From: Chitinophagales bacterium 65-1
GTDB lineage: Bacteria > Bacteroidota > Bacteroidia > Chitinophagales > Chitinophagaceae
Reading direction: 5' to 3'
Assembly: GCA_002050465.1 (NCBI GenBank)
Contig: MWYX01000050.1
Location: 1 to 51,023 of the forward strand
Length of the DNA stretch: 51,023 bases
A program made the translations under genes and the position numbers. This document shows positions 6,904-46,543 of this stretch, piece by piece. The number at the start of each line of letters is the position of its first letter. Position 1 is the stretch's first letter. A model generated the notes under the pieces. It had not been told where the DNA came from. It worked only from the letters and a program-made list of their open reading frames with translations, and searched no databases.

Positions 6904-7959
6904 ATGTATAAGCTGCTCCGTAATATTTTGTTTTTGTTTGATGCAGAACAGGTTCATTATTTTTCTATGAATCTTTTAAAAGCTGTTTGCAAAATTGGTT
7001 TTTTGAAAAAAATAATTACCAAGAAATATACCCCTACAAATTCTCCTGTAAATATTCTTGGATTACAATTTAAAAATCCGATAGGTCTGGGTGCTGGGTT
7101 TGATAAAAATGCAAAATATTTAACTGGACTGGAAGCTCTGGGATTTGGTTTTATTGAAATCGGAACCGTTACGCCATTACCTCAACAAGGAAATGATAAA
7201 CCAAGATTATTTCGCCTCCCAAAAGATAAAGCACTAATAAATAGAATGGGATTTAATAATGACGGAGCTAAGGTAGTGGCGGAGAGACTAAAGGTGTGGA
7301 AAGGCAGTCGACAGTCGACAGTCGACAGTCGACAGTTAATTATTGGTGGCAATATTGGTAAAAACAAGCAAACTCCAAATGAAGATGCATGGAGGGATTA
7401 TGAGATTTGTTTTATGGAATTATTTGATTGGATTGATTATTTTGTAGTGAATGTAAGTTCTCCAAATACACCGGGTTTAAGAGATCTTCAGCAAAAAGAT
7501 TTTTTGAGAAAAATATTAACACATCTTCAAAGCCTGAATAATAAACAGGCAATTTCTAAACCTATCTTACTAAAAATATCTCCTGACCTTAATGAAAGAG
7601 AAACTGATGATATTATAGAACTTGCAATTGAAATAAATTTAGATGGGTTTGTAGTAAGTAATACAACTATCAGCAGAGATAAACTACAAACCACAAACTA
7701 TAAACTACAACCTATGGGAGCAGGAGGTTTAAGCGGCAAACCATTAAAACAATCATCAACAAAAATTCTTGAATACATTTGTAAAAAATCAGATAATAAA
7801 ATACCTGTAATTGCAAGTGGCGGAATTTTTACAGGCAATGATGCCAAAGAAAAAATAGAGGCAGGAGCTTTATTAATACAGGTATGGACAGGTTTTATTT
7901 ATGAAGGACCGGCAATTGTAAAAAACATTAGCAAAAGCCTTGCTTATATTTACAAATAA
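6904..7959 (+). CDS. pyrD: Quinone-dependent dihydroorotate dehydrogenase
   Basis: A 351-residue class 2 dihydroorotate dehydrogenase that oxidises dihydroorotate to orotate in pyrimidine synthesis and passes electrons to membrane quinone through FMN. The N-terminal helices (about 1-40) are the membrane-associated quinone-tunnel extension of class 2. Family motifs are LGAGFDKNAKYL, EIGTVTPLPQQGN, RMGFNNDGA, the catalytic-Ser loop VNVSSPNTPGLRDL (Ser185/186), VSNTTISRD, GAGGLSGKPL and ASGGIFTGNDA. Two stretches are unusual. Residues 134-145 (around SRQSTVDSRQ) and 260-269 (KLQTTNYKLQ) are encoded by heptanucleotide arrays, the first adding about 10 residues before the NIGKNK strand compared with the E. 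coli enzyme. Catalytic motifs are intact, so the enzyme is probably active. TerC follows 10 bp downstream. Confidence 0.96.
   Translation: MYKLLRNILFLFDAEQVHYFSMNLLKAVCKIGFLKKIITKKYTPTNSPVNILGLQFKNPIGLGAGFDKNAKYLTGLEALGFGFIEIGTVTPLPQQGNDKPRLFRLPKDKALINRMGFNNDGAKVVAERLKVWKGSRQSTVDSRQLIIGGNIGKNKQTPNEDAWRDYEICFMELFDWIDYFVVNVSSPNTPGLRDLQQKDFLRKILTHLQSLNNKQAISKPILLKISPDLNERETDDIIELAIEINLDGFVVSNTTISRDKLQTTNYKLQPMGAGGLSGKPLKQSSTKILEYICKKSDNKIPVIASGGIFTGNDAKEKIEAGALLIQVWTGFIYEGPAIVKNISKSLAYIYK
7305..7336. repeat. Heptanucleotide array CAGTCGA x4.6 inside pyrD
   Basis: Four perfect tandem copies of CAGTCGA plus CAGT. The array lies in frame and encodes the SRQSTVDSRQ insertion in PyrD. Confidence 0.95.
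7681..7708. repeat. Heptanucleotide array AAACTAY x4 inside pyrD
   Basis: Four heptamers (AAACTAC, AAACCAC, AAACTAT, AAACTAC) encode KLQTTNYKLQ. This is the second array in the same gene, with a different word and the same period. Confidence 0.85.
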
Positions 7960-7969
7960 TTTTTAATTG

Positions 7970-8779
7970 ATGGAACATTTATTTACCAGTGAAAGTATTA
8001 TCAGTTTTTTAATTCTTGTAGTTTTAGAAGTGGTACTGGGTATAGATAATGTGATTTTTGTAAGCATTATCATGAACAGGTTAAAGGATGCGAAAGACAA
8101 AGCGAAAGCCAGGATGATATGGATGATAACCGGCATTCTGTCAAGAAGTATATTATTATTAGGCTTAGGATGGCTGCTTTCACAAAAAGGCAAATCTATT
8201 TTTACATTATTTGGAAAAGGATTTGACCTGGCTAGTATCGTAATGATTTTAGGCGGATTATTTCTTATATATAAATCGGTAAAAGAAATACATGGTAAAT
8301 TGGAAGGAGAGGATCCCAATGAAAATTTAAAAGGTAAAGCAGGAATTTCTTTAGGTAATGCCATAGGACAAATAATGCTGATTGATGCGGTATTTTCTTT
8401 TGACAGTATTATTACAGCAGGAGGAACTGCAAAATATGTTGAGATAATGATTGCCGCAGTTGTGATTGCTATGACCGTAATGTTTTTGTTCAGTCCTAAA
8501 ATTTCCTCTTTTATTCATAAACATCCAACATTAAAAATGTTGGCACTTTCATTCTTAGTAATGATCGGCTTAAGTCTTGTTATGGAAGGGTGGAACTCGG
8601 AAGCAGCCCACCAGTTAGGACTAAAAAATTATATTTATTTCGGGATGGCGTTTTCTTTTATTGTAGAAATGCTGAATATGTTTATGCTAAAAAAACAAAA
8701 AAGGACTACACGCCCTGTAGAATTACATGAGCCTTATTATAAAGCATCAGAACCTCATGATGGTGATGCTGCACGATAG
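7970..8779 (+). CDS. TerC family integral membrane protein
   Basis: A 269-residue polytopic membrane protein of the TerC/YjbE/YkoY group, with about seven hydrophobic helices. Diagnostic features are the acidic first-helix motif FLILVVLEVVLGIDNVIF and its second-half counterpart QIMLIDAVFSFDSIITAGG, in which the conserved Asp residues sit in the membrane. TerC-type proteins are linked to Mn or Ca handling and tellurite resistance; recent work ties homologues to Mn export during secretion. Assigning manganese to this copy is inference. An ATG at 7970 follows an in-frame TTG at 7967; ATG is preferred. It starts 10 bp after pyrD and may be co-transcribed with it. A soluble C-terminal tail (KKQKRTTRPVELHEPYYK) ends in HDGDAAR. 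Confidence 0.9.
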   Translation: MEHLFTSESIISFLILVVLEVVLGIDNVIFVSIIMNRLKDAKDKAKARMIWMITGILSRSILLLGLGWLLSQKGKSIFTLFGKGFDLASIVMILGGLFLIYKSVKEIHGKLEGEDPNENLKGKAGISLGNAIGQIMLIDAVFSFDSIITAGGTAKYVEIMIAAVVIAMTVMFLFSPKISSFIHKHPTLKMLALSFLVMIGLSLVMEGWNSEAAHQLGLKNYIYFGMAFSFIVEMLNMFMLKKQKRTTRPVELHEPYYKASEPHDGDAAR

Positions 8780-8849
8780 TAATGTATAATAAACTGCCGA
8801 ATTTGTTGAATTAATTTAGTTTTAGCAAAAATGCAACTTTGGGTTTTGC

Positions 8850-9221: not shown

Positions 9222-9275
9222 ACCAATTGCTTTTTTATTTTATGTAAGATAATCAATAATTTATCCGTGTACAAA

Positions 9276-12351: not shown

Positions 12352-13056
12352 TTAAGCCGGAGCATTAGCTGTCATTAGTACTGCAGCAGCTATACCTGCA
12401 GTTTCTGTTCTTAATCTTGTTTTGCCTAATGATACAGGAATAAAATTATTTTGCTTAGCCAATTCAATTTCTGGCTCTGTAAAATCGCCTTCGGGGCCAA
12501 TGAGAATTATTGAGAATAGATTAATTGTTTTATTGCTTAATTGTTTTTTTTCATCTTCACTGCAATAAGCTATGTATTTATTTTGTTGAGTAGAAATTTT
12601 TATTACCTCGCCAAATTTTATTGGTTCATGTAATTTGGGTAACCATGCCTGCTGGCTTTGAAGCATAGCGCTTATAAGAATATTTTTCATCCTGTTGTGA
12701 CGAAACGTTTGTCTTTCTGTTCTTTCACAAATCATTGGGATGATCTCTGAAACGCCCAATTCCGTTGCCTTCTCCAAAAACCATTCAAAGCGGCTGGTAT
12801 TTTTTATTAAAGAGATTGCTATTGTAATGTTTGATGTACGATGTGGGATGTTTGATGTTGAGAGTACTTTTATTTCTGCTTTTTTATATTCAGAAATAAT
12901 TTCTGCAGTGATTATTTTGCCTTTACCATTTGTGAGTTGAAGATTTTCACCCGCCTTCATTCTCAATACTTGTATAATGTGTTTTGATGTTTCTTCAGAT
13001 AATGTAAAAGAAGATGCGGATGCTAATTCTTCTTCAAAAAAAACAGGTAGTGACAT
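12352..13056 (-). CDS. rsmE: 16S rRNA (uracil1498-N3)-methyltransferase
   Basis: A 234-residue SPOUT methyltransferase that methylates N3 of U1498 in 16S rRNA using S-adenosylmethionine. The N-terminal PUA-like domain (LPVFFEEELA, HIIQVLRMKAGENLQLTNGKG) is followed by the SPOUT domain (LIKNTSRFEWFLEKATELGV, MICERTERQ). The knot motifs are LIGPEGDFTEPEIELA and VSLGKTRLRTETAGIAA. I chose the ATG at 13056 (MSLPVFF). An in-frame ATG at 13140 would add 28 residues read out of a dispersed repeat and would overlap dnaB by 35 bp. GGAGAAG 7-10 bp before this ATG may be the ribosome-binding site and comes from that repeat. Residues 66-78 (STSNIPHRTSNIT), between the two domains, are encoded by a heptanucleotide array. 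Confidence 0.93.
   Translation of the reverse strand: MSLPVFFEEELASASSFTLSEETSKHIIQVLRMKAGENLQLTNGKGKIITAEIISEYKKAEIKVLSTSNIPHRTSNITIAISLIKNTSRFEWFLEKATELGVSEIIPMICERTERQTFRHNRMKNILISAMLQSQQAWLPKLHEPIKFGEVIKISTQQNKYIAYCSEDEKKQLSNKTINLFSIILIGPEGDFTEPEIELAKQNNFIPVSLGKTRLRTETAGIAAAVLMTANAPA
12825..12859. repeat. Heptanucleotide array NGATGTN x5 inside rsmE
   Basis: Five heptamers: TAATGTT, TGATGTA, CGATGTG, GGATGTT, TGATGTT. The array encodes the linker between the PUA-like and SPOUT domains. The same word family occurs in rluB at 46239-46266. Confidence 0.85.
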
Positions 13057-13060
13057 TATA

Positions 13061-13108
13061 TTAATCTTCTCCATTTCTCCCCTTTCGGGGGAGATAGAGG
13101 GGGCTTTA
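13061..13108 (-). repeat. C/G-rich dispersed repeat starting at the dnaB stop codon
   Basis: On the minus strand it reads TAAAGCCCCCTCTATCTCC, then CCCGAAAGGGGAG, then AAATGGAGAAGATTAA. It matches 44627-44676 over about 50 bp with four substitutions and one indel. CTCCCC/GGGGAG forms the stem of a hairpin. The first three bases are the stop codon of dnaB, and the distal end supplies the region before the rsmE ATG. Confidence 0.85.
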
Positions 13109-14671
13109 AAAAGGTGTTTCGTCATCAAACTCGCCATCATTCATTTTACTTCCTTTTTGAATGTAGAGTTTAGCGCTGTCGCCGTCAATATCACTAACCG
13201 GTTTCCAGTTACCGGTACCGGGAAACTGGCTGCTGAGATCACTTCCATCTTCTTCGATAAATTTCTGAATATGAAGTAAAGCTTTTAAATTAATTTTTTC
13301 AAGTTGCCCGTTTCTATGCTTTGCAATGCGCAGAATTGTTTCACCTTTGTTGCTTTCACCCATTTCATTTGCAGTAATGTCATAATATTCCGGACGGTAT
13401 AAAAACATTACCATGTCAGCGTCCTGCTCAATAGCACCGGACTCTCTAAGGTCACTCAGCTGTGGCATTTTTTGACCATCTTTTGCACCCCGCTTTTCAA
13501 CTTCACGGCTCAGCTGGCTTAAAGCAACAATCGGAATATTCAATTCTTTTGCAAGCCCTTTCAAATCTCTCGATATACGGCTTATTTCCTGCTCACGGTT
13601 ACTGTTTCGGTTTTCACCCGTTCCGCTCATTAACTGCAGGTAATCAATAATTATTAATCCAACATTGTGTTTATTTTTTAAACGGCGGCATTTAGCCCTT
13701 AATTCAAAAATATTCAACGCTGCTGTATCATCAATGTGAATCGGTGCCGATGCAAGTCTTTCAATTCCCTTCTTGTAGAGCTGTTTCATTTCATGTTCTT
13801 CCAAACGACCTCTTGAAATTTTCTCTAACCATATCTCGCTTTCAGAGCTTAATATTCTTTGCACCAGCTGCCCTGCACTCATTTCTAAAGAAAAAAAGCC
13901 TACTGAAGTTGGCTTTGTTGGATGCAATGCTGCATTCCGTGCAAGATTAAGTGCAAATGCAGTTTTACCAACAGACGGACGTGCGGCAAGTATTATTAAA
14001 TCAGCAGGTTGCCATCCATAGGTTATTCTATCTAACAGATGAAAGCCAGTAGGAACACCACTTATTTCATCTTGCCGGGTGCGCAGATCTTCAATACGTT
14101 GAATAGTTTTTACCAGAACATCGCTTATAGCTGCATAATCCTTACGAAGATGATTATTGGTTATTTCAAACAATTTAGCTTCTGATTCATCTAATAAATC
14201 GAACACGTCAGTACTGTCTTCATAAGCATCGCCAATAATTTCACCGCTAATCCTGATAAGTTCTCTTTGAATAAATTTCTGCAGAATAATTCTTGAGTGG
14301 GCTTCAATATTTGCAGAAGAAACAACTGCATTAGTAAGCTTTGAAACATAATAAGGCCCTCCAACAATATCCAATTCTTCGCGGAATTTTAATTCTTCAA
14401 CAACGGTCAACAAATCAATGGGTAAATTTTTCTGCTGCAATCCCTGCATGCTCCTGTAAATACGCTGATTGGCTTCTACATAAAAGCATTCAGGTTTTAA
14501 AATTTCAGCAACGATATCAAAGGCACTTTTTTCAAGCATTATTGCACCAAGTATAGCTTCTTCAAGGTCTTTTGCCTGGGGTGGAACCTTGCCATACATC
14601 ATTGTTCCAAGGTCGAGTGAGCCGCTTTTTCTACGCGTTTTTCTATCCTTATTCAGGTTGGTAAGATCCAT
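13106..14671 (-). CDS. dnaB: Replicative DNA helicase
   Basis: A 521-residue hexameric replicative helicase. The N-terminal DnaB domain (PPQAKDLEEAILGAIMLE ... about 30-140) is followed by a linker and a RecA-like ATPase domain. The latter has GVPTGFHLLDRITYGWQP, Walker A ARPSVGKTAFALN, FSLEMSAGQLVQRI, Walker B LIIIDYLQLMSG, and ESGAIEQDADMVMFLYRPEYY. No intein is present. The last residues NDGEFDDETPF resemble the acidic DDxxPF tip of SSB proteins (see findings). The stop codon is the first codon of a dispersed C/G-rich repeat. rsmE lies downstream on the same strand, separated only by that repeat, so co-transcription is likely. Confidence 0.97.
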   Translation of the reverse strand: MDLTNLNKDRKTRRKSGSLDLGTMMYGKVPPQAKDLEEAILGAIMLEKSAFDIVAEILKPECFYVEANQRIYRSMQGLQQKNLPIDLLTVVEELKFREELDIVGGPYYVSKLTNAVVSSANIEAHSRIILQKFIQRELIRISGEIIGDAYEDSTDVFDLLDESEAKLFEITNNHLRKDYAAISDVLVKTIQRIEDLRTRQDEISGVPTGFHLLDRITYGWQPADLIILAARPSVGKTAFALNLARNAALHPTKPTSVGFFSLEMSAGQLVQRILSSESEIWLEKISRGRLEEHEMKQLYKKGIERLASAPIHIDDTAALNIFELRAKCRRLKNKHNVGLIIIDYLQLMSGTGENRNSNREQEISRISRDLKGLAKELNIPIVALSQLSREVEKRGAKDGQKMPQLSDLRESGAIEQDADMVMFLYRPEYYDITANEMGESNKGETILRIAKHRNGQLEKINLKALLHIQKFIEEDGSDLSSQFPGTGNWKPVSDIDGDSAKLYIQKGSKMNDGEFDDETPF

Positions 14672-18246: not shown

Positions 18247-19809
18247 ATGACAGAAATACTTCCAATAATTATTGGCATTGCCGCATTAATAGCAGGTATC
18301 CTGCTGGGTAAGTTCCTCTTCGCAAAAAACACTAAAAAACAGTTAGAAGAAGCAGATCAACAGGCACAAAAAATTATCTCGGACGCAAAAACTCAAGCTG
18401 AAACCTTGAAGAAGGAGAAATTACTGGAGGCTAAAGAACAATTTGTTCAAATTAAAGCCGATCATGATAAAGAGGTATTCCAACGTAATCAAAAACTAAG
18501 TGAAGCGGAGAACAGGCTTAAGCAAAAAGAACAATCTGTAAACCAAAAGGATCAGGGCATTGCCAAGATGCTTAAAGATAATGAGGTTATAAAAGAGAAC
18601 CTTAACCGCCAGCTTGAAGTGGTAAATATTAAGCGTACTGAACTTGAAAAACACCAGGAAGAGCACATACGCAGGCTCGAAAAAGTTGCCGGCTTAACAG
18701 CAGACGAAGCAAAGACACAATTAATAGAAAGTTTGAAGCAGGAGGCACATTCCCAGGCGCTCAGCATCCAGCAGGAAATTATTGATGATGCAAAGCTTAG
18801 AGCTAATAAAGAAGCAAGAAAACTTATCATTCAAACTATTCAGCGTACAGCTGCGGAGCAGGCTATTGAAAATGCAATAACTGTTTTTAACCTCGAAAGT
18901 GATGAAATAAAGGGTTCTATAATTGGGAGGGAAGGAAGAAATATACGTGCAATAGAAGCTGCAACAGGTGTAGATCTTATAGTTGATGATACTCCGGAGG
19001 CAATCATTCTTTCTTCATTTGATCCCCTGCGTCGTGAGATAGCCAGACTATCATTGCAGCGTTTAGTAGCTGATGGTCGTATTCACCCGGCACGTATTGA
19101 AGAGGTGGTAGAAAAAACCCGTAAACAATTAGAAGATCAAATAATAGAGATTGGTGAAAGAACGGTAATTGAACTCGGTATTCATGGCCTCCATAAAGAA
19201 TTGGTTCGTATTGTTGGTAAAATGCGGTTCCGTTCTTCTTATGGCCAAAATCTGTTGATGCACAGCCGCGAAGTAGCAAATCTTTGTGGTATAATGGCTG
19301 CCGAACTGGGAATGAATGCAAAACTTGCTAAGCGAGCCGGCCTTTTACATGATATAGGGAAGGTTCCCGATGAAGAAACCGAATTAAGCCATGCTTTGCT
19401 TGGAATGAAGCTGGCAGAAAAATATGGTGAAAATCCTGCGGTTTGTAACGCTATTGGCGCCCATCATGATGAAGTGGAAATGCAATATGTCATCTCTCCT
19501 ATTGTTCAGGCATGTGACTCTATGAGCGGTGCCAGACCGGGAGCCCGCCGGGAAATTATGCAGCAATACCTGCAACGTATAAAAGATTTGGAAAATACTG
19601 CTCTCGGTTATCCAGGGGTTGAGAAAGCATATGCAATCCAGGCCGGACGTGAATTACGGGTTATTGTTGAAGCTGATAAAGTATCAGATATTGACAGTGA
19701 TAAACTGAGTTTTGAGATTGCCCAGAAAATTCAAACCGAAATGACCTATCCCGGACAGATAAAGGTTACGGTTATTAGGGAAAAAAGAGCGGTGAACATT
19801 GCGAGGTAA
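18247..19809 (+). CDS. rny: Ribonuclease Y
   Basis: A 520-residue membrane-anchored endoribonuclease that starts mRNA decay. The N-terminal transmembrane helix (about 4-24, [20 protein letters not shown]) is followed by a long coiled coil (about 30-200), a KH domain with [17 protein letters not shown] (227-243), and an HD domain with the metal-binding HD pair H368-D369 in [14 protein letters not shown] plus [10 protein letters not shown]. The C-terminus ([17 protein letters not shown]) is the conserved family end. All catalytic motifs are intact. It lies downstream of zapA on the same strand, a gene order I recall from other Bacteroidota. A TATCTTCG element in the upstream gap (18162-18169) may be its own promoter. 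Confidence 0.97.
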
Positions 19810-19851
19810 ATGTTTCAGACGTTAAGAAGTTCCACAGGTTCAATAAGTTCT

Positions 19852-19907
19852 TTAAACTTTTGAACCCTTGAACCTTTTAAACTTTTGAACTCTTTAATCC
19901 TTTGAAA
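19852..19907. repeat. Octanucleotide array (TTGAACCT-like) x7 before rplS
   Basis: Seven octamers in exact phase: TTAAACTT, TTGAACCC, TTGAACCT, TTTAAACT, TTTGAACT, CTTTAATC, CTTTGAAA. The last unit supplies the TTTG of the rplS -33 element. Confidence 0.8.
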
Positions 19908-19931
19908 CCTTTTAAACTTTCCTTACCTTTG
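19901..19931 (+). promoter_or_regulatory. rplS promoter, TTTG-N19-TACCTTTG
   Basis: TTTG at 19901-19904 and TACCTTTG at 19924-19931 are separated by exactly 19 bp, a full match to the Bacteroidota housekeeping promoter. The ATG of rplS is 20 bp downstream. Confidence 0.8.
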
Positions 19932-19950: not shown

Positions 19951-20301
19951 ATGGATGCTGTAGCTTTTGTTCACGAGCAATTAACTGCAAAAAAAGAATT
20001 ACCCAAATTTAAAGCCGGGGATAACATAACTGTTAACTATAAAATTCAGGAAGGCACTAAAGAGCGTATCCAAAGCTTTAAAGGTGATGTTATCAAGCGG
20101 CAGGGCGAAGGTGGTACAGCAACATTTACTGTACGTAAAATTAGCGATGGTATTGGTGTTGAACGTTTATTCCCCCTATTCTCACCCAACATTGACAGTA
20201 TTCAATTACATAAAGTTGGAAGAGTTCGCCGTACAAAACTGTATTTCCTTAGGGAAAGAAGCGGAAAGAGTGCCCGTATCAAGGAAAAAAGAATGAAATA
20301 A
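19951..20301 (+). CDS. rplS: 50S ribosomal protein L19
   Basis: A 116-residue L19 protein of the large subunit at the 30S interface. Conserved features are the N-terminal helix ([20 protein letters not shown]), [51 protein letters not shown] and the basic end [22 protein letters not shown]. Length is normal. It has its own consensus promoter and is followed by a strong terminator, so it is a single-gene unit here rather than part of an rpsP-rimM-trmD-rplS operon. rpsP and rimM sit 20 kb away in this window and trmD is not seen. Confidence 0.98.
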
Positions 20302-25442: not shown

Positions 25443-26742
<1,300 letters not shown>

Positions 26743-26973
26743 TACAGGTAAAAATAAAATGAAAAAAAGTAAATGCAGTTTATATTTCAGCATTGTTTGA
26801 AAATAGTGGAAAAAGAAACATTCTACGTAAATGAACTAACAATTAAGGCGCAATTATAAGATACTGGAATTAGTGGTATCAATATTCTGCATGAAAAGCT
26901 GAATATAGGTATTCAGTTGAAGTGAGTGACACAACGATGTTTAATAGTAGTGCAAAAGCTAGTCCCAAAAATT

Positions 26974-28934: not shown

Positions 28935-29633
28935 TTAAGGCTTTAACTTTTTGTCTTTTTTTGAATTGATCAATAAAACTTCATCCACCAAACCATAGTC
29001 TTTGGCTTCAGGAGCAGTCATCCAGTAATCACGATTGCTGTCTTTGGCTATTTTATCTACAGGTTGCCCTGTATGGTAAGAAAGCACTTCATATAATTCA
29101 TGTTTTATTTTTCTTATTTCGTTCACCGTTATTTCTACATCGCTGGCCTGCCCCATTGCTCCTGCACTTGGCTGATGCATCATTATCCTTGAATGTTTTA
29201 ATGCTGTACGTTTTCCCGGTGCGCCTGCCGCCATTAAAACAGCTGACATACTCGCTGCCATGCCCGTACAAATAGTAGCAATATCCGGACTAACAAACTG
29301 CATGGTATCATACAAACCCAAACCTGCATATACAGCGCCGCCCGGAGAATTTATGTAGAGTTGAATATCTCTTGTACGATCAGTACTTTCTAAAAATAAA
29401 AGCTGTGCTGTTATAATATTGGCAACCTCATCACTTACTGGGTATCCTAAAAATATTATCCGGTCCATCATTAACCGACTGTAAACATCCATTACCGCAA
29501 TATTCATAGGCCTTTCCTCAATAATATTGGGCGTAAGATTAGTTACATTATGCTGCACATAATCATGTAAGGTATGGCTGCTTATACCCTGATGTTTTAC
29601 AGCGAATTTTTCAAACTCTTTGCCGTGATTCAT
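28935..29633 (-). CDS. clpP: ClpP protease subunit, first paralogue
   Basis: A 232-residue ClpP subunit with a complete triad: Ser128 in [12 protein letters not shown], His153 in [13 protein letters not shown], Asp202 in [20 protein letters not shown] 40-residue N-terminal extension ([20 protein letters not shown]...) precedes the core and may contain a propeptide. [20 protein letters not shown] and [20 protein letters not shown] are typical of the family. It is downstream of tig on the same strand (150-bp gap holding repeat arrays) and directly upstream of the second clpP. The order tig-clpP-clpP-clpX groups a nascent-chain chaperone with the Clp protease. Confidence 0.96.
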
Positions 29634-29720
29634 ATTAAATGTTTTGTAGAAGAAATATATCGATGAAAGTTCCCAAATATTATACCCCTCTCACATAAAG
29701 AGGTAAATGAAATTACAACT

Positions 29721-29785
29721 AATGATTTAATGACTTAATGACTTATTACTCCTGACAACTGACAACTAACTACTGACAACTAATT
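29721..29785. repeat. Octamer and heptamer arrays between tig and clpP
   Basis: Three octamers (AATGATTT, AATGACTT, AATGACTT; 29721-29744) are followed by five heptamers (CCTGACA, ACTGACA, ACTAACT, ACTGACA, ACTAATT; 29751-29785). The last unit runs into the tig stop codon. Confidence 0.8.
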
Positions 29786-31145
29786 AATGATGGTGATTGT
29801 GTTGCATAGCCGTAAGTTCTTCGGCAGTAACTTCTTTTTCTTCGGGTTTTACCTGGCCTTCTGCCCATGTAAATAATTTATCTGTGATAAGCCTTCTGTA
29901 ACTGGCGTCCACCTGTTTTTCATCTTTCATCATCCTGTCAACGTAACTTTCTATCCAGCTGGTGTCACCATCCATTTTCATCTGCCCAAAGTATTGAAGA
30001 ATTTCTTTCCTCATATTTTCTCTCAATTCCTCCTCGCTTACTTCTAAATTATATTCCCTGATAAATTTATCACTTATCAATGTCCATTTTAATTGATTTG
30101 TAAAAGATGGAAATTCTGCTTCCACTTCTTCGATAGATTTTTCTTTTTCACCACTTTTTTGGAGCCATTTTTTTAAAAAATCATCAGGAAACTGAATTGG
30201 AGTATCTAAAAGAAAATGATATATCTGGTCGTGCAATTGCACACGGCTTTGTGCATCCCAATGTTTTTGAATTTCCTCTCTTAATTCATTACGAAACCCT
30301 TCTTCAGTTTTTATTTCTTTACCAGGTAACACCTCATTAAAGAATTCTTCATTTAATTCTCTTTTTTCAACAAGGGCTACTTTGGTGATAGTCATTTTAA
30401 AATACTTATCGCCTGGGGACATATCATCTTTATTCAATCCTAAATCACCGATAATCCATTCTCTTTCCTTTTCCTCAAAGGCATTATTTAATTGCAGAAT
30501 AATATTATCGTCTTTCTTTTTACCCATTAACTGCTCACGAAAAGCGGGAGTAAAATATTTAACCAATAAAGAATTATCTTTTGAAACTCCGCCCTGTACC
30601 GGACTTCCTTCCGCATCAACTTCAACAAAATTTACATTAAGCACATTGTCTTCGGCAGTAACAGTTTCCGGCTCCAGCATTTTACCATGACGGTTTTGCA
30701 GCCTTTCAATTTCTTCATTGATCATTCCATCGGTAACCTTCACTTTATTACAATTAAGTTTAGCTTTTGAAAGATCAACATCAACCTGTGGTTTTAAACC
30801 GATCTCAAATGGAAATTCATAATCAGCTGGATTATTCATATCAAGATTCCGGAGATCGCTGCTTATTGGCAAAGGCTGTGCAAAAAAATCTGGTTTTTCA
30901 GTAGCAAGATATTTTTGTATTTCTTTTTCTACTTCCTTAATTACTGCATCATAAAATACGGAAGATCCATACATTTTTTTAACCATGCCTGCAGGAACCA
31001 TTCCTTTTCTAAACCCCGGAATATTTGCCTTCTTACTGTACTCTTTAATCGATTTTTCAAAAGAAGGATAATAATCCTCTTTGCTCAGTTTAACCGTTAA
31101 TTTATCATGCAATAAACCAATGTTTTCTCTTATAACTTCTGCCAT
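29784..31145 (-). CDS. tig: Trigger factor
   Basis: A 453-residue ribosome-associated chaperone. The N-terminal ribosome-binding domain has the signature loop ANIPGFRKGMVPAGMVKKMYG. The middle region that is a PPIase (FKBP) domain in Proteobacteria is hard to recognise here (VTAEDNVLNVNFVEVDAEGS ... YFKMTITKV), as is usual in Bacteroidota. The long helical C-terminal domain (about 260-440) forms the substrate cradle. The protein ends in a natural His-rich tail, MQHNHHH. It is first in the tig-clpP-clpP-clpX series. Upstream are heptanucleotide arrays and a tRNA-Leu on the same strand. Confidence 0.95.
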   Translation of the reverse strand: MAEVIRENIGLLHDKLTVKLSKEDYYPSFEKSIKEYSKKANIPGFRKGMVPAGMVKKMYGSSVFYDAVIKEVEKEIQKYLATEKPDFFAQPLPISSDLRNLDMNNPADYEFPFEIGLKPQVDVDLSKAKLNCNKVKVTDGMINEEIERLQNRHGKMLEPETVTAEDNVLNVNFVEVDAEGSPVQGGVSKDNSLLVKYFTPAFREQLMGKKKDDNIILQLNNAFEEKEREWIIGDLGLNKDDMSPGDKYFKMTITKVALVEKRELNEEFFNEVLPGKEIKTEEGFRNELREEIQKHWDAQSRVQLHDQIYHFLLDTPIQFPDDFLKKWLQKSGEKEKSIEEVEAEFPSFTNQLKWTLISDKFIREYNLEVSEEELRENMRKEILQYFGQMKMDGDTSWIESYVDRMMKDEKQVDASYRRLITDKLFTWAEGQVKPEEKEVTAEELTAMQHNHHH

Positions 31146-31161
31146 AATTTATTACTTTTAT

Positions 31162-31229
31162 GTCATTAGTCAATCGTCATTAAGTCAATGGGGATGAAAC
31201 ATAATGACCATTGACCATGGACCTATGAC
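31162..31229. repeat. Inverted pair of heptanucleotide arrays upstream of tig
   Basis: Left half: GTCATTA, GTCAATC, GTCATTA, A, GTCAATG (31162-31190). Right half: TAATGAC, CATTGAC, CATGGAC, CTATGAC (31202-31229). The right words are reverse complements of the left ones, so the element is palindromic around an 11-base spacer. Confidence 0.8.
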
Positions 31230-31240
31230 TTTTGATGAAG

Positions 31241-31322
31241 TGCCCATGGAGGGACTCGAACCCCCACACCTTGCGGCATCAGATCCTAAGTCTGACGTGT
31301 CTACCAATTTCACCACATGGGC
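31241..31322 (-). tRNA. tRNA-Leu (anticodon TAG)
   Basis: On the minus strand the acceptor GCCCATG (5') pairs with CATGGGC (3'), with discriminator A and no encoded CCA. The D-arm region GGTGAAATTGGTAGACAC, the anticodon arm TCAGA-CTTAGGA-TCTGA (anticodon TAG, reading CUN leucine codons), the long class II variable arm GCCGCAAGGTG and the T-arm GGGGGTTCGAGTCCC(TC) are all present. Length is 82. Confidence 0.95.
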
Positions 31323-34069: not shown

Positions 34070-34414
34070 AGCAAAAAAAAATTTTAAAAGTAAGAAGCGA
34101 ATATAGTTTAAGAAACTAAAATATGCAGCCCATTAACTTCAATATTGAACATTAACAGTAAAGATTAAAATATTTTTGGATATAATTATTTTGTTATTAA
34201 ATTTGCCTCAGATTGCTTTTCAACTTGTCTGGCAACAGGCAGGTACATCAGCCTTTGTTTTAGTTGTATCGTTTATAAAGATGCCTCTGATCAAAGGCTG
34301 AGTCTATTTTGTCTGAACTGTGATTATGGGGAGTTATGGGAAGATTGGGATAAAGAATATCTGCATTTTTTTATCCCATTAATCCACTAATCCCATAAAT
34401 CCTGGTTCCGACAA
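34070..34414. other. 345-bp intergenic region rich in hairpins
   Basis: No gene is visible. It contains three inverted-repeat structures: ACTTGTCTG-GCAA-CAGGCAGGT (34222-34243), TCAGCCTTTG ... CAAAGGCTGA (34248-34301, 10-bp arms) and the larger palindromic element at 34309-34414. It separates the sod gene from the peptidase gene, both on the minus strand. Confidence 0.7.
34309..34414. repeat. Palindromic element TTGTCTGAAC...GTTCCGACAA abutting the sod stop
   Basis: Terminal inverted repeats TTGTCTGAAC and GTTCCGACAA enclose two inverted arrays of about 9-base period (TTATGGG words on the left, ATCCCA words on the right) around a short A/T spacer. The right arm matches the pyrD leader repeat at about 34 of 41 positions. 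The outer end is the base adjoining the stop codon of sod. Confidence 0.8.
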
Positions 34415-35211: not shown

Positions 35212-36729
35212 CTATTTTCTTACTCCAAAGGAGTTTTTGTGTACAGAAGAATCCTTACGGATAAATATACCTGATACCCGTTTAAGAAACATAAAATAAG
35301 CTTCTTTATTAAAGATCTGGGAATCCCTTGTTGCTTTCCAGGTAAGAAAAACACCCACAGGGAATAACACAATAATGGGGAGCCACATCCCCATCATCGG
35401 CGTTAAGTTTTGCTGCTTTACCAATTTTTCACCAAATGTACTTAGTAAATGAAAGATAGTGAAGAATGTAAGCCCTACAAGAATTGGCATGCCTAACCCT
35501 CCTTTTCTGATAATAGAGCCTAATGGTGCTCCGATAAAAAGAAGAACCAGGCAGGCAACAGATAAAGAGAATTTTCTGTGCCATTCTATTAATATGGTAC
35601 GCACATTGCGCACATTTGTTAGGTATTCTGCGCCGGTAATTTGAAGTAAATTTCTTGAACTGCTTACTGCATATAATGCAGTTTGATTTACATCTTTTTC
35701 TAAGGTATCCGGTATAATGTCATCAAAAGTTTTTATTGTAATGTTATCTGTTGAGGTTTTTACTTTATCCTTATCTGATAAAGTTTTTACTTTATCCTTA
35801 TCTGATAATGCAGAATTTTGTTGTGTTGCCATTTTATCGTTAGAAAATTTAAAAAAAGGGCTTAGCTCTGTATCTGTTCTTTTTCCAAAAGACTCTTTTT
35901 TCTTATTTATAGAGTCAAGTACATTATCAAGCTGCCTCAGTGTTTGCATTTTAAAATTATTCCTATACAAGCTATCCGGCGTAAATTGTATATCAAGCTG
36001 GCTAAGGTCAAAAAGTTTATTATATTCCTTAAAGCTCAATCTTACAAATTCATTATTCGCGCCATTATAATTGCCTTTTTCTTCATACCGATAGCCGTTT
36101 TGTAATTTAAATTCCAGGAATTTTTTATCAGGGCTCATATTCATTGCCCCTTTTTCAGAAATTACAGTATTATCCTGAGGACCATTTGACTGTTCATAGA
36201 TTAAAATCCCTTTCAAACTTGTTTTGTCCTTTTCTTTTTTTGCCACTTTTATTGAATACCCTTTAAAACCATTATAAAATACTCCATCTTTTAAATTGAA
36301 AGCAGGGCTTTTGCGAAGGATATCATTATAAATTGTTGCAAATTTTAAATTAGCAACAGGAATTACGTAATTAGCAAACAGAAAGGTGATAAAACATAAT
36401 ATAAGTGCTACAAAAAAAAGAGGGCGCATAAATCTTAACAGGGAGATTCCGGAAGATTTAATGGCGACCAATTCAAAACTTTCTCCAAGCTTCCCAAAAG
36501 TCATTATCGATGAAAGCAAAATTGCAATAGGCAATGCCAGCGTTATTAATGTGGTACTGGCATAAATAATAAATTTTGTAAATGTAATTATATCCAGGCC
36601 CTTGCCAACCAGATCATCAATATACTTCCATAATATCTGCATTATTAAAACAAACAGTGTAATAAAAAATGTAACGATAAACGGCCCTACAAAAGCTTTA
36701 AGAATCAGTTTATCTAATTTTTTAATCAC
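35212..36729 (-). CDS. LptF/LptG family permease
   Basis: A 505-residue inner-membrane permease of the YjgP/YjgQ family, which with LptB extracts lipopolysaccharide towards the Lpt bridge. The N-terminal half has helices starting at KLILKAFVGPFIVTFFITLFV and ITLALPIAILLSSIMTFGKLGESFELVAIKSSGIS; the C-terminal half has FSLSVACLVLLFIGAPLGSIIRKGGLG. The periplasmic jelly-roll domain (about 130-380) contains KGAMNMSPDKKFLEFKL-like segments and an insertion with a perfect tandem duplication of nine residues (SDKDKVKTL, about 307-325). One such gene is seen; Bacteroidota often encode several LptF/G-like permeases. It is divergent from the gene at 36771. Confidence 0.92.
   Translation of the reverse strand: MIKKLDKLILKAFVGPFIVTFFITLFVLIMQILWKYIDDLVGKGLDIITFTKFIIYASTTLITLALPIAILLSSIMTFGKLGESFELVAIKSSGISLLRFMRPLFFVALILCFITFLFANYVIPVANLKFATIYNDILRKSPAFNLKDGVFYNGFKGYSIKVAKKEKDKTSLKGILIYEQSNGPQDNTVISEKGAMNMSPDKKFLEFKLQNGYRYEEKGNYNGANNEFVRLSFKEYNKLFDLSQLDIQFTPDSLYRNNFKMQTLRQLDNVLDSINKKKESFGKRTDTELSPFFKFSNDKMATQQNSALSDKDKVKTLSDKDKVKTSTDNITIKTFDDIIPDTLEKDVNQTALYAVSSSRNLLQITGAEYLTNVRNVRTILIEWHRKFSLSVACLVLLFIGAPLGSIIRKGGLGMPILVGLTFFTIFHLLSTFGEKLVKQQNLTPMMGMWLPIIVLFPVGVFLTWKATRDSQIFNKEAYFMFLKRVSGIFIRKDSSVHKNSFGVRK
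35756..35809. repeat. 27-bp tandem duplication inside the LptF/G gene
   Basis: Two head-to-tail copies of a 27-bp unit (35756-35782 and 35783-35809), identical except for the last base. In frame it duplicates SDKDKVKTL. Confidence 0.95.
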
Positions 36730-38964: not shown

Positions 38965-40287
38965 ATGTTCGAATCATTAAGTGATAAATTAGATTCCGCC
39001 TTTAAAAATCTAAAAGGTCAGGGAAGAATAACTGAATTAAATATCGCCTCTACTTTAAAAGAAATTCGCCGTGCACTTGTTGATGCGGATGTAAACTATA
39101 AAATCGCTAAAGAATTTACAGATTCCGTTAAAGAAAAAGCTACAGGCGAAAAGGTTATCAATGCTATTAGCCCTGGGCAATTGATGGTGAAAATTGTAAA
39201 GGATGAGCTTGCGGAATTGATGGGGGGCACAGAAAGTGATCTCGACCTGAAAGGTAACCCCACCATCATTTTAATAGCAGGATTGCAGGGAAGTGGTAAA
39301 ACAACTTTCAGTGGTAAGTTGGCTAATTATTTAAAAACCAGAAAAGGAAAATCGCCGTTGCTGGTGGCTGCAGATATTTACCGGCCTGCAGCTATAGATC
39401 AATTAAAGATTCTGGGAGAACAGGTTAATGTAGATGTATACAGTGAGCCTGAAAATAAAGATGCAGTATCAATTGTACAAAATGCTATTAAAGAGGCAAA
39501 GTCTAAAAATAAAAATGTAGTAATTATAGATACCGCCGGCCGTTTAGCGGTTGATGAAGTGATGATGACGGAGGTTGCCAATATTAAAGCATCTGTTAAC
39601 CCCCAGGAAATTTTATTTGTGGTTGATAGTATGACGGGTCAGGATGCGGTGAATACGGCAGCGGAATTTAATAAGAGATTGGATTTTACGGGGGTGGTGT
39701 TAACCAAGCTTGACGGAGATACAAGGGGCGGTGCGGCAATCTCTATTAAATACACAGTTACTAAGCCCATAAAGTTTACCAGCAGTGGCGAAAAAATGGA
39801 TACCCTGGATATTTTTTATCCTGAGCGTATGGCGCAGCGGATATTAGGTATGGGAGATATTGTTAGTCTGGTGGAAAAGGCGCAGGATCAATTTGATGAA
39901 GAGCAGGCAAAGAAACTGGAGAAAAGGATCCGTAAAAACCAGTTTGATTTTGAGGACTTTAAAACCCAGTTACAGCAAATTAAAAAAATGGGTAACCTCA
40001 AAGATCTGATGGGAATGATACCCGGCGTAGGCAAGCAAATAAAAGATGTAGATGTTAATGACGACTCTTTTAAAGGAATAGAAGCAATGATAAATTCCAT
40101 GACGCTGGAAGAGCGGAGAAATCCTGATATAATAAACCCAAGCAGAAAGCATCGGATTGCCAAAGGAAGTGGTAAAGACATTGCCGAACTGAATGCGTTT
40201 ATAAAGCAATTTGAACAGATGAAGGATATGATGAAGATGATGAATAAAATGCCTATGGGAAAGCTGGCAGGTTTGGCAAAAAGATAA
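38965..40287 (+). CDS. ffh: Signal recognition particle protein Ffh
   Basis: A 440-residue SRP54 GTPase that, with SRP RNA, targets nascent membrane proteins to FtsY. The N domain (1-95, with ALVDADVNYKIAKEF) is followed by the G domain with G1 GLQGSGKTTFSGKLA (106-120), AADIYRPAAIDQL, DTAGRLAVD and TKLDGDTRGGAA. The M domain (about 300-440) contains RGxGKxxxxxN-like HRIAKGSGKDIAELNAFIKQF and Met-rich helices (MKDMMKMMNKMPMGKLAG) for signal-sequence and RNA binding. rpsP follows after 98 bp with its own promoter. No SRP RNA gene was identified in the window. Confidence 0.97.
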   Translation: MFESLSDKLDSAFKNLKGQGRITELNIASTLKEIRRALVDADVNYKIAKEFTDSVKEKATGEKVINAISPGQLMVKIVKDELAELMGGTESDLDLKGNPTIILIAGLQGSGKTTFSGKLANYLKTRKGKSPLLVAADIYRPAAIDQLKILGEQVNVDVYSEPENKDAVSIVQNAIKEAKSKNKNVVIIDTAGRLAVDEVMMTEVANIKASVNPQEILFVVDSMTGQDAVNTAAEFNKRLDFTGVVLTKLDGDTRGGAAISIKYTVTKPIKFTSSGEKMDTLDIFYPERMAQRILGMGDIVSLVEKAQDQFDEEQAKKLEKRIRKNQFDFEDFKTQLQQIKKMGNLKDLMGMIPGVGKQIKDVDVNDDSFKGIEAMINSMTLEERRNPDIINPSRKHRIAKGSGKDIAELNAFIKQFEQMKDMMKMMNKMPMGKLAGLAKR

Positions 40288-43990: not shown

Positions 43991-44629
43991 ATGAGTTTAC
44001 GTTTAGGAGATATTGCTCCCAATTTTAAAGCTAATACCACCGAAGGGGAAATAGATTTTTATGAATACTTAGGCGATAGCTGGGGAGTTTTATTTTCGCA
44101 CCCTGCAGATTACACCCCTGTTTGTACTACAGAATTAGGCAAAACAGCATTGCTCAAAGAAGAGTTTGCAAAAAGAAACGTGAAAGTGCTTGCAGTTAGT
44201 GTTGATCCGATTGATAAGCATTTAGGCTGGAGGAATGATATTAATGAAACACAAAACTGCACAGTTGATTTCCCAATCATCGCTGATGAAGACAGAACTG
44301 TAGCCAACCTTTATGGAATGATCCATCCAAATGCTTCTGAAACTTTTACAGTGCGCTCATTATTTATAATTGGCCCTGATAAAAAAATAAAATTAACGCT
44401 TACTTATCCAGCATCAACAGGAAGAAATTTTCATGAAGTTTTACGGGTGATAGATTCTTTACAACTTACAGCAAAATACAGTGTTGCAACGCCTGCTGAT
44501 TGGAAACATGGAGAAGATGTAATTGTTGTTCCGGCTGTTAGCACAGAAGATGCAATGAAGAAATTTGAAAAAGGGATAAAGGTTATTAAGCCATATTTGC
44601 GTTATACCCCACAACCGAATATTGATTAA
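43991..44629 (+). CDS. Peroxiredoxin (Prx6-like)
   Basis: A 212-residue thiol peroxidase that reduces hydrogen peroxide and organic peroxides. The peroxidatic Cys45 is in SHPADYTPVCTTELG, the classic Prx1/Prx6 motif. VDPIDKHLGW, DFPIIADEDRTVANLYGM and the arginine-containing RSLFIIGPDKKIKLTLTYPASTGRNF follow. Length, and the C-terminal domain with VATPADWKHGEDVIVVPAVS and KGIKVIKPYLRYTPQP, place it in the Prx6 (1-Cys) group. A second Cys90 exists but not at the usual resolving position. It is divergent from an Rrf2 regulator. Its TAA stop codon is the first codon of a C/G-rich repeat. Confidence 0.95.
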   Translation: MSLRLGDIAPNFKANTTEGEIDFYEYLGDSWGVLFSHPADYTPVCTTELGKTALLKEEFAKRNVKVLAVSVDPIDKHLGWRNDINETQNCTVDFPIIADEDRTVANLYGMIHPNASETFTVRSLFIIGPDKKIKLTLTYPASTGRNFHEVLRVIDSLQLTAKYSVATPADWKHGEDVIVVPAVSTEDAMKKFEKGIKVIKPYLRYTPQPNID

Positions 44630-44676
44630 GGCCCCCTCTATCTCCCCCGATGGGGGAGGAAATGGAGAAGATCAAT
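44627..44676 (+). repeat. C/G-rich dispersed repeat starting at the peroxiredoxin stop codon
   Basis: TAAGGCCCCCTCTATCTCC, then CCCGATGGGGGAGG, then AAATGGAGAAGATCAAT. It is the partner of 13061-13108, in the opposite chromosomal orientation but the same orientation relative to its gene. Confidence 0.85.
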
Positions 44677-44705
44677 TCGATGATTTGCCCGGGATTTAAT
44701 ATTCA

Positions 44706-45467
44706 TTAGTTTCTGCTCTTTCTTAATTGCTGCAAAAGCGCTCTCATATCTTTGGGCATTTCTGCTGTAAGATCAAACTCTTTATTAACCCTGTCTTTAA
44801 ATTTTAATTTATAAGAATGGAGTGCCAGCCTGTTTATCATAGGTCTTTCTTCCTCATCATGTTTGCTAAGCTTGAATTTTTTTTTAAAAGAAGATAATAA
44901 AACCGGTGTTGGATCCCCATATAATTCATCGCATACAATCGGGTGACCAAGATGCTTCATATGAACACGTATCTGGTGGGTTCTCCCCGTATGTATCTGA
45001 AATTGAACTAAAGAATAAATTCCATATTCTTCCAATATTTCATATTCAGTTAATGAGGATTTTCCTTTAGCATGCACAATCATGCCTTTGCCGGCAGGAT
45101 GTTCCATAATAGGTTCTTCAATTATTCCTTTTTTATTTTGAAGTGTTCCCTGTATTACCCCCCTATAATATTTTTCTATTTTTCTCTGCTCAAACAGTTG
45201 GGAAAGAAATTTATGCGTTGCTTCATCTTTGGCAAATAATATTAATCCGCTTGTTTCCCTGTCTAACCGGTGAACAATAAATATTTTGCCATACTGCTCT
45301 TGTAAAGTTTTATACAAAGAGTTAATTGTATCATCATGCCTGTCAGGAATGGTTAATAATCCTGAGGGCTTATTAACTGCAACAAAGTTTTCATTTTCAA
45401 ATATGATACCCCCTGCCCCCCTAAAGGGGCGATTGAGATGTAAACTATTTAACGAAGTGCTATTCAT
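44706..45467 (-). CDS. RluA family pseudouridine synthase
   Basis: A 253-residue RNA pseudouridine synthase. The catalytic Asp is in VHRLDRETSGLILFAK. NFVAVNKPSGLLTIPDRHDD, KKGIIEEPIMEHPAGKGMIV, LVQFQIHTGRTHQIRVHMKHLGHPIVCDELYGDP and NRLALHSYKLKF are the family motifs. There is no S4 domain. The first roughly 20 residues (MNSTSLNSLHLNRPFRGAGG) are read from a short C/G-rich repeat (CCCCTTTAGGGGGG at about 45408-45435), so the ancestral start may have been nearer IIFENENFVAV. Its start codon shares a base with the rluB-type stop codon (TAATG), so the two synthases are translationally coupled. Confidence 0.92.
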   Translation of the reverse strand: MNSTSLNSLHLNRPFRGAGGIIFENENFVAVNKPSGLLTIPDRHDDTINSLYKTLQEQYGKIFIVHRLDRETSGLILFAKDEATHKFLSQLFEQRKIEKYYRGVIQGTLQNKKGIIEEPIMEHPAGKGMIVHAKGKSSLTEYEILEEYGIYSLVQFQIHTGRTHQIRVHMKHLGHPIVCDELYGDPTPVLLSSFKKKFKLSKHDEEERPMINRLALHSYKLKFKDRVNKEFDLTAEMPKDMRALLQQLRKSRN

Positions 45468-46543
45468 TATTGAGGATTGCTCATTTCTTTCTCCTTCCCC
45501 TTGGGGGAAGGACGGGATGGGGCTGTGTATTTAAGCTGCCTGATCTCTTTCTCACTCAGGTAACGCCACTTTCCTCTTTCTACATTTTTTTTGGTAAGGC
45601 TTGCATACATAACCCTGTCCAGTGCTTTTACGTCATACCCAAAATGTTCAAAAATGCGTCGTACGATACGGTTTCGTCCGCTGTGTATCTCTATTCCTAT
45701 AATTGCTCTATCATTGGAATCAGCATAAGCCAGGGCATCAGCATGTATCTCGCCATCCTCAAGGGTAATACCGCTTACTATTTTATCAAAGTGTGCCTTT
45801 GTAACCGGCTTATCTAATTTTACCTCATACACTTTTTTTATATTATAGCTGGGATGGGTTAGCTGTTGTGTTAGTTCGCCATCATTTGTAAAAAGTAAAA
45901 CGCCTGAAGTGTTTCTATCCAACCTGCCGATGGGGTAAACTCTTTCGGTAGTAGCATGCTTTATTAGTTGAAGAACTGTTTTTCGGCCTTGCGGATCATC
46001 AGTTGTGGTTATATAATCTTTAGGTTTATTTAAAAGAATATATACCATGTTCTTTGTAACAAATAATTTTTTGCCGTTAAACATAATCACATCTTTATCC
46101 GTTACTTTAAACCCCGGCTCTGTAACTATAGTACCATTCACTGTTATCTTTCCTTCTTTAATTAATGGCACGGCATCTCTTCGTGAACCTACGCCGCAAT
46201 GCGCAATAAATTTATTCAAAGGCATTTCAGAAAATGCTTGATGTACGATGTTTGATGTACCATGTTGTGTAGGTGATGGGGACTGTTGTTTGTTACTTGT
46301 TGCCTGTTGTTTATTGCCTATTCCTTTCTGTGGATATTTTTGTCTTTTATCAGGTTTCTGCTGTTGTGGAATTTGTGCGGAAGGCGAATAGCCTTGTCTT
46401 TTTAAAGCTCTTTTTTCTTCAAATCTTTTATTAATCCCTTCCGCCCTTTCTTTTTTAGCTTGTTTTTTTTCCTGCTTGAATTTTTCTTTTATCGCAGCAT
46501 TATTTTTTTTTACTACAAATTTTTTAAAGGGTTGCTGACTCAT
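45467..46543 (-). CDS. rluB: RluB/RsuA family pseudouridine synthase with repeat-derived N-terminal linker
   Basis: A 358-residue rRNA pseudouridine synthase that probably acts on 23S rRNA. Layout: a basic low-complexity N-terminus (1-72, KKQAKKERAEGINKRFEEKR), a linker from two heptanucleotide arrays (73-102, including GNKQQATSNKQQSPSP), an S4 RNA-binding domain (about 105-165, MPLNKFIAHCGVGSRRDAV), and the catalytic domain with the Asp in YPIGRLDRNTSGVLLFTND and GRNRIVRRIFEHFGYDV. The C-terminal tail (YTAPSRPSPKGKEKEMSNPQ) is encoded by another C/G-rich repeat (CCTTCCCCCAAGGGGAAGG at about 45494-45514). Long basic N-terminal tails are usual in Bacteroidota members. Confidence 0.93.
   Translation of the reverse strand: MSQQPFKKFVVKKNNAAIKEKFKQEKKQAKKERAEGINKRFEEKRALKRQGYSPSAQIPQQQKPDKRQKYPQKGIGNKQQATSNKQQSPSPTQHGTSNIVHQAFSEMPLNKFIAHCGVGSRRDAVPLIKEGKITVNGTIVTEPGFKVTDKDVIMFNGKKLFVTKNMVYILLNKPKDYITTTDDPQGRKTVLQLIKHATTERVYPIGRLDRNTSGVLLFTNDGELTQQLTHPSYNIKKVYEVKLDKPVTKAHFDKIVSGITLEDGEIHADALAYADSNDRAIIGIEIHSGRNRIVRRIFEHFGYDVKALDRVMYASLTKKNVERGKWRYLSEKEIRQLKYTAPSRPSPKGKEKEMSNPQ
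46239..46326. repeat. Two heptanucleotide arrays inside rluB
   Basis: TGATGTA, CGATGTT, TGATGTA, CCATGTT (46239-46266) are followed by an 18-bp spacer and GTTGTTT, GTTACTT, GTTGCCT, GTTGTTT, ATTGCCT, ATTCCTT (46285-46326). The first array shares its word with rsmE (12825-12859). Confidence 0.87.

Follow-up and report, generated by a model that had tools for sequence, protein, structure and literature searches.

Heptanucleotide repeats of cyanobacteria go under the name STRR. Arrays of comparable build occur in the stretch of DNA studied here, positions 1 to 51,023 of contig MWYX01000050.1 (assembly GCA_002050465.1) of Chitinophagales bacterium 65-1, whose full length of 51,023 nucleotides is called the window below. 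We found that 7- and 8-mer arrays of this type stand, as inverted arms of one and the same word, on both sides of genes for a four-helix-bundle protein (FHB), that they are enriched at these genes, that the word of the arms is coupled to the protein, and that occupied, empty and decayed versions of the same sites exist. Our reading, to which we give a probability of roughly 70%, is that the arrays represent terminal arms, or remnants of such arms, that belong to small selfish elements, similar to intervening sequences (IVS) of 23S rRNA but located outside rRNA; that the solitary arrays derive from FHB elements is what we infer from these observations.

The closest described relatives are the 23S rRNA IVS of Coxiella and Leptospira, which share with the elements reported here the S23p/FHB family, a single open reading frame (ORF) per element, terminal inverted repeats that form a closing stem, and a similar size. 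The IVS of Coxiella is 428 nt long, carries an S23p ORF and 28-bp terminal inverted repeats and is excised by RNase III; depending on the strain, two or three tandem GACAGAT heptamers and a degenerate one precede the start codon (PMC4990558). That case already joins heptamers, inverted ends and an FHB-type gene, and the available text of the same paper does not generalise it. In contrast to the IVS, the elements whose neighbours were read sit between protein genes (rnz, accB-accC, nrdB-nrdA, cas6-cas4), and both of their arms are phased, degenerate 7/8-mer arrays, with several copies and several words per genome. As the gene family and the stem agree while the rRNA location does not, we set the elements apart from the IVS.

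The heptameric repeats of Nostoc and Xanthomonas also form arrays, are over-represented in non-coding DNA and change in copy number, but no tie to FHB genes is stated in the available text of PMC4692102. X. campestris, whose strain ATCC 33913 is reported to carry heptamers, is also reported to have an FHB protein of solved structure, XCC0516. TAACTGA repeats of Beggiatoaceae, Cyanobacteria and five Bacteroidetes form heptamer arrays as well, many of them near start codons and, in the Bacteroidetes, with other heptamer repeats alongside (MacGregor, 2015; PMC4679880). An initial annotation of the window, made from its letters alone, had given no named equivalent for Bacteroidota, a gap that the MacGregor paper does not bear out. 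The TAACTGA repeats differ in being one exact word, and the terms S23, four helix and intervening are absent from the main text of that paper.

The accessory protein Avd of diversity-generating retroelements is a homologous four-helix bundle (PMC10053308), and the bAvd family PF22296 gave a weak match, below the curated cut-off, to one of three FHB proteins. Unlike such retroelements, the arms at loci L059, L055 and L057 enclose nothing but the FHB gene or what is left of it (no search aimed at a reverse transcriptase was made). FHB-less inverted pairs resemble miniature Bacteroidota elements with tandem repeats, such as the BrickBuilt miniature inverted-repeat transposable element of P. gingivalis; the unit of BrickBuilt is 23 nt long and its inverted-repeat ends are small, whereas here the ends are the arrays themselves (PMC4596501). 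Among the open-literature records listed, mostly titles and abstracts, none was found that links FHB genes outside rRNA to flanking heptamer arrays. IVS, STRR and TAACTGA repeats are known; what appears to be new is the tie of heptamer arrays to FHB genes outside rRNA.

Most FHB Genes of the Genus Lie Between Inverted Arrays of One Word

Three units of GATGTNN (GATGTNNGATGTNNGATGT) were present, with variable NN, in 17 of 59 genomes, that of Chitinophagales bacterium 65-1 included. The latter gave 10 overlapping matches at seven places over the whole genome (1 for the motif read backwards), and the maximum of 31 matches was reached in genome G010 (backwards control, 8). Some of the matches form inverted pairs, 60–1800 bp apart, as was seen at 7 of the 20 places read. 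An intact small ORF is enclosed by one pair (L059) and a damaged one by two (L055, L057), while L052, L054 and L056 hold no such ORF and L058 encloses 1.8 kb of other sequence. The ORF between the arms encodes an FHB protein (TIGR02436; PF05635, "23S rRNA-intervening sequence protein"). PF05635 matched all three FHB proteins tested, two over the curated cut-off and one just below it. Among proteins of solved structure, 2gsc and 2rld are related in sequence, and the Xanthomonas FHB of solved structure is reported to be a homopentamer (PMC4990558).

TIGR02436 gave 84 matches in 18 of 20 genomes of the genus and none in 14 control genomes. With three two-piece genes counted once and one 36-residue piece left out, the matches correspond to 80 places, of which one at a contig end was dropped. 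For the remaining 79, the flank preceding the FHB match was aligned with the reverse complement of the flank following it, each flank being at most 200 bases long. The median inverted arm score was 21 at the own locus vs. 10 for mismatched loci, and 63 of the 79 genes (four of six in Chitinophagales bacterium 65-1) exceeded the 95th percentile of mismatched pairs, a score of 16. As a comparison we used a wider sample of the same genome, composed of the window and 20 further stretches (410,318 of 1,957,690 bases). Among its 358 ORFs, 339 non-FHB ORFs had enough flank and only five of them scored above 16, whereas both FHB ORFs of the sample did so. Two of the five, L028 and L033, show visible arrays.

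The words of the arms vary by locus; AGGCAAG, GTGAATG, AATTGAC, TTCAAGR, GTTAATT, CAGTCCA and AACTACA are among those listed. A complete element is about 450–620 bp long and consists of a 7- or 8-mer array, an FHB ORF of about 115–150 codons and an array of the same word in inverted orientation. In the two full elements folded as RNA, L059 and L247, an arm-arm stem closes around the ORF (z −4.4 and −7.5, respectively), and miniature pairs also close with such a stem (L056, z −5.7; L028, z −3.9).

The Array Word Follows the Protein

Periodic flanks were present at 177 of 179 FHB loci. These gave, after removal of 338 pairs with similar outer flanks, 15,238 pairs in a set that may still hold distant orthologues. 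FHB identity correlated with word similarity (Mantel r 0.455, p 0.001; the largest of 999 permutations reached 0.08), and within the genus only, r was 0.330. Below 30% FHB identity the words are unrelated (mean cosine 0.01–0.02); at 60–80% identity 35% of the pairs share words.

Occupied, Empty and Decayed Sites

The site upstream of rnz was compared in 17 genomes and holds the arm-FHB-arm arrangement in three (G008, G015, G010). The ORF is broken in G015. The copy in G010 has an internal deletion, and a second, miniature copy is seen by eye alongside. A decayed FHB gene with one arm is seen in G000, at a contig end. Ten of the 17 genomes are array-free at this site (10–121 nt), G003 and G005 carry short arrays of other words without an FHB gene, and G012 was left uncalled.

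A similar range was observed in the accB-accC gap of 18 genomes. The complete arrangement is present in five, four with GCTAATTA-type arms and G014 with another word. The gap of G019 holds an FHB remnant with no array detected, and that of G015 a 79-nt FHB-less inverted array pair of another word, which folds as a hairpin (z −4.6). Arrays are also present in G005 and G008, with a weak one in G001. In seven genomes the gap is short and empty (27–49 nt); that of G012 measures 106 nt, has no detected array and resembles by eye a decayed pair. One word of this gap, TTTTCAAA (G014, G005; L320, L324, L323), resembles the accC leader of the short-site genomes.

Evidence for a second site comes from L146 in G010. 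Its match to L055 and L059 starts within the left arm and ends at the final codons of the ORF, which is internally deleted in L146; beyond the matched block no significant similarity between L146 and these two loci was found. Judged from these alignments, the sites and L146 support a probable insertion as a unit followed by decay, without exact ends.

The same sites bear on the reverse order of events, in which the arrays come first, FHB genes home into existing arrays or hairpins, and the arrays themselves propagate in some other way. In the own-genome sample FHB genes are indeed outnumbered by solo arrays and FHB-less inverted pairs, and the other-word arrays of G003 and G005 at rnz lie there without such a gene. 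We nevertheless consider this order unlikely, since ten rnz and seven short accB-accC sites are free of arrays, word similarity tracks FHB identity, and the second-site copy L146 brought its left arm along.

The Same Layout in Other Phyla and on Plasmids

A search of GTDB genomes with a single FHB protein retrieved at least 80 named loci, assigned to taxa by record title. Many among the 80 matches listed are flanked by inverted AGGCACAA, AGGCAGA, AGGCATTA or AGGTTCAAA arrays, and the taxa among these matches include Flavobacterium, Planctomycetota, Verrucomicrobiota, Nitrospirota, KSB1, Elusimicrobia, Kiritimatiellae and deltaproteobacterial groups. The own-vs.-other arm test was weak in this set, with 25 of the 80 above the 95th percentile, because the loci share one word family. 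Among the same matches, a GGC[AT] 7/8-mer word of one FHB subfamily was found on at least one arm at 27 and on both arms at 17 of the 31 loci that are non-Bacteroidota by title (one being an "uncultured bacterium"), and somewhere in the wrong orientation at five of the 31; of the Bacteroidota loci in that subfamily, 17 of 49 carried it. Across all subfamilies, the word was present at 4 of the 80 genus FHB loci.

Three further genomes, one locus of each being already among the 80, were examined with FHB genes taken regardless of subfamily. Scores above the 95th percentile of mismatched pairs were obtained for all six FHB genes of Flavobacterium sp. LPB0248, for eight of nine in Cerasicoccus frondis and for 11 of the 14 with enough flank in a Nitrotoga metagenome-assembled genome. 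The 17 TIGR02436 matches found in all in the latter (L331–L360, G059) are many for its size of 2 Mb, contamination aside.

On plasmids, one FHB query matched 41 records, mostly of cyanobacteria, and the arm test was passed by 9 of the 20 examined. One cyanobacterial plasmid has an FHB gene between nrdB and nrdA with arms GGGAGTA/TACTCCC, another (L246) between cas6 and cas4 with arms GGTGACA/TGTCACC. Locus L249 is without arms, and the arrays of L250 and L255 are one-sided. A transposase, integrase or recombinase gene lies beside the FHB gene at six of the 20 loci (L248, L250, L253, L255, L263, L264), on plasmids that are rich in such genes. L251 likewise places an FHB gene between cas6 and cas4 on a cyanobacterial plasmid, and the family appears in a published figure of CRISPR-linked proteins. 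Among 50,697 phage records no match to one FHB query was obtained at E 1e-5.

Period-7 and Period-8 Arrays Exceed Chance

Arrays were scored by matching the sequence with itself at a constant offset (+1 for a match, −1 for a mismatch). At a threshold score of ≥12 the window alone holds six period-7 arrays, vs. a mean of 0.6 and a maximum of 4 in 20 block-wise dinucleotide shuffles, and three period-8 arrays, vs. a mean of 0.6 and a maximum of 2. The wider sample was compared with five shuffles at a score of ≥14; it gave 31 arrays of period 7 and 8 of period 8, vs. 0.2 in shuffles for either, with the reservation that three stretches (L019, L021, L033), the source of 9 of the 33 merged arrays, had been picked for GATGT arrays already present. 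At ≥16, 22 period-7 and five period-8 arrays remained and the shuffles gave none. Period 9 yielded 2 arrays vs. 0.6, period 14 (twice 7) 15 vs. 1.2, and the remaining periods between 4 and 16 gave 0–3 arrays each, near background.

The shuffle counts for the window and the sample rule out a chance origin of the arrays and confirm that the period-7/8 repeats of this genome are real. The initial annotation had proposed a single family in which the period is constant and the word changes; the arrays are well above chance and comparable to cyanobacterial heptanucleotide repeats, and the shuffle comparison it had named beforehand, applied here to roughly one fifth of the genome, gave counts above shuffled sequence and left the proposal standing. 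Within the sample, tandem 7-mers are both above chance and dispersed, as in STRR, and five of the window arrays are intragenic.

Arrays of the Window

Window genes were assigned by Pfam and NCBIfam; arrays are on the + strand unless stated otherwise. All the words listed by the initial annotation were found at their positions in a TRF list and by direct reading. Its picture of arrays scattered through genes and gaps stood as regards the loci; the inverted word pairs around a gene and the in-frame arrays of housekeeping genes had been missed. Two of the intragenic arrays are in pyrD, one in rsmE and two in an rluB-like gene, and the remaining arrays have rplS, purA, clpP, tig and a tRNA gene as neighbours. 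We compared the window arrays with 320 FHB-flank sequences and used two controls, a set of flanks lying farther away and the reversed array; 8 of 11 arrays exceeded both controls.

In pyrD (6904–7959), an array of 4.6 exact CAGTCGA copies lies in frame at 7305–7336, with its best FHB-arm match at L095/L077. This site is a linker whose length and repeat word vary among relatives, and a differing array is present in G000, G008, G015 and G019. A palindrome similar to CCGATAGCTATCGGGA stands beside a heptamer array in the pyrD linker of G010 and, in degenerate form, of G015 (L268 and L267). The AAACTAY array at 7681–7714 occupies a pyrD loop of unchanged length, is common to G000, G008, G010 and G015, and matches the arms of FHB genes L112 and L113 of Chitinophagales bacterium 65-1 and of L093. 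A GATGTNN array at 12827–12859, inside rsmE (12352–13140, − strand), also sits in a loop of unchanged length and is common to the same four genomes. The rluB-like gene, for an S4-domain pseudouridine synthase (45467–46543, − strand), contains a GATGTNN array at 46234–46266 and an RTTRYYT array at 46284–46322, the second of which matches the arms of FHB gene L145.

Among the intergenic arrays, an octamer array of TTTGAAC type lies at 19851–19920 between rny (18247–19809) and rplS (19951–20301); its match to the FHB-arm vocabulary was no higher than that of the reversed control. The ORF that follows it had been considered as an FHB gene, wrongly, as family assignment identifies it as rplS. A weak RRGTTRY array, not significant alone, is found at about 26711–26743 just upstream of purA (25443–26708, − strand). 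Upstream of clpP (28935–29633, − strand) and past the stop of tig (29784–31145, − strand) lies an octamer TTAATGAC array at 29720–29745. It is adjoined, directly past the tig stop, by an ACTGACA heptamer array at 29752–29781 that matches both arms of FHB gene L073.

Between the tig start and the tRNA gene (31241–31322, − strand) there is an FHB-less inverted pair. Its left arm, GTCATTA/GTCAATG at 31162–31190, matches the arms of FHB gene L127, and its right arm, CATTGAC/TGACC at 31205–31235 (− strand), is just at the period-7 threshold. The inverted-partner test was passed from the left arm, and the right arm was not above the random maximum. The piece 31158–31240 folds as a clear hairpin (z −3.6), the only clear one of five folded, since 12820–12862, 29716–29785 and 46230–46325 gave none and 19825–19925 was marginal (z −2.1). 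The pair at 31162–31235 looks like an FHB-less inverted element, and the remaining window arrays are solo. TIGR02436 detected no FHB gene in the window, all six matches of the genome being on other contigs, and an Rfam scan returned a tRNA and nothing else.

Taken singly, several loci are weak, above all 26711–26743, absent from the TRF list and from the period-7 list of the window, and 31205–31235. The arrays at 46234 and 31162 have TRF periods of 14 and 15, respectively, and are also absent from the window period-7 list.

The window also contains a 27-bp tandem repeat (3.1 copies, 35726–35808) inside the ORF 35212–36729, which was not above the vocabulary controls. A different, period-9 array (AATCCTAAT...) is seen at 6857–6900 and 34373–34410, with ends GGTTCAGAC / GGTTCCG. 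Repeats resembling it and linked by TCTGAACC adjoin ORFs in L020 and L033. These period-9 arrays are possibly a second repeat family.

Discussion

Ordinary slippage, with a polymerase preference for units of seven bases and an independent origin of each array wherever the DNA tolerates it, is the explanation that PMC4679880 and PMC4692102 cite from Mrazek et al. (2007). The dominance of period 7 in the 410,318-base sample, the placing of arrays in permissive linkers and gaps, and homogeneous arrays in some more distant genomes all agree with it. It does not explain why the same word stands inverted around one gene family (63/79 vs. 5/339) or why word and FHB are coupled across unlinked sites and phyla, and the units are degenerate rather than identical. 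Because of the inverted arms at FHB genes and the word-protein coupling we reject pure slippage, and consider ordinary slippage improbable as the origin of the arrays. That the arrays are sites bound by one translational regulator, as MacGregor (2015; PMC4679880) argued for TAACTGA of marine Beggiatoaceae, would suit the arrays before the start codons of rplS, purA, tig and clpP in the window and of accC and rnz in relatives, but is rejected as highly improbable, since the words differ between sites and, at accB-accC, also between relatives, arrays lie inside pyrD, rsmE and the rluB-like gene, the same genes are array-free in many relatives, and word similarity tracks FHB identity.

In the reading we prefer, of IVS-like elements and their leftovers, the arms of an element co-transcribed with its neighbour genes would pair and form a long stem whose loop holds the FHB ORF. 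This arm-arm stem may let the element be excised, by a double-strand RNase, or tolerated. The element would move as a unit, from array to array, and copies would then lose the FHB gene, leaving short inverted pairs and eventually solo arrays such as those in the window. Slippage of units together with arm-to-arm copying across the hairpin would keep both arms in one word while that word drifts, so that the period stays fixed and the words differ between elements.

A number of observations weigh against this reading. The arm test failed at 16 of 79 genus loci and at 11 of 20 plasmid loci, arrays on both sides of L251 and L262 run in the same direction, and the direct-repeat version of the test was passed at 14 of 79 genus loci, some words being near-palindromic. 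In the own-genome sample the majority of arrays have no FHB gene next to them; of the 39 arrays tested, 13 had an inverted partner within 600 bp and 3 a direct one. In the vocabulary test 12827 and 29720 won by one point only, 19851, 26711 and 31205 failed, and of four tandem repeats in the window that are unrelated to the arrays, one (40217–40244) also won by one point. Simple insertion does not predict the same-length loop replacement at pyrD 7681 and in rsmE, for which replacement through template switching between arrays is our guess. The likeness of TTTTCAAA to the accC leader suggests that the array word may sometimes be taken from the target site. L146 has an internal deletion in its ORF and a right arm of about two units, so that it demonstrates only the left end of the moved block. 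No target-site duplication was identified at the divergence available, nor was a moving enzyme, and the FHB elements read hold no transposase between their arms. The word-protein coupling follows from the common descent of the elements and does not prove recognition.

More tentatively, and at less than even odds, the elements may represent a mobile-element class whose sole gene is FHB and whose ends are a self-renewing 7/8-mer array recognised by FHB, with word and protein co-evolving. Most bacterial heptanucleotide repeats (cyanobacterial STRR, TAACTGA, GGGAATC and the in-frame repeat peptides of Bacteroidota) might then be ends or scars of such elements.

The literature available to us offers slippage or unexplained transfer, and nothing more, as the origin of bacterial heptanucleotide repeats, and gives no function for the S23/four-helix-bundle protein. 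The link between arrays and FHB genes joins these two puzzles and makes both testable, and it could give a class of bacterial repeats a common origin. Eighteen S23/IVP genes have been reported in cas loci, often with Cas4 or Cas6 (PMC3936711); a simpler reading is that they are passengers of operon gaps and not defence genes, with L246 as an example. For the host, pyrD and rsmE suggest that the arrays can rewrite the loops of housekeeping enzymes in frame.

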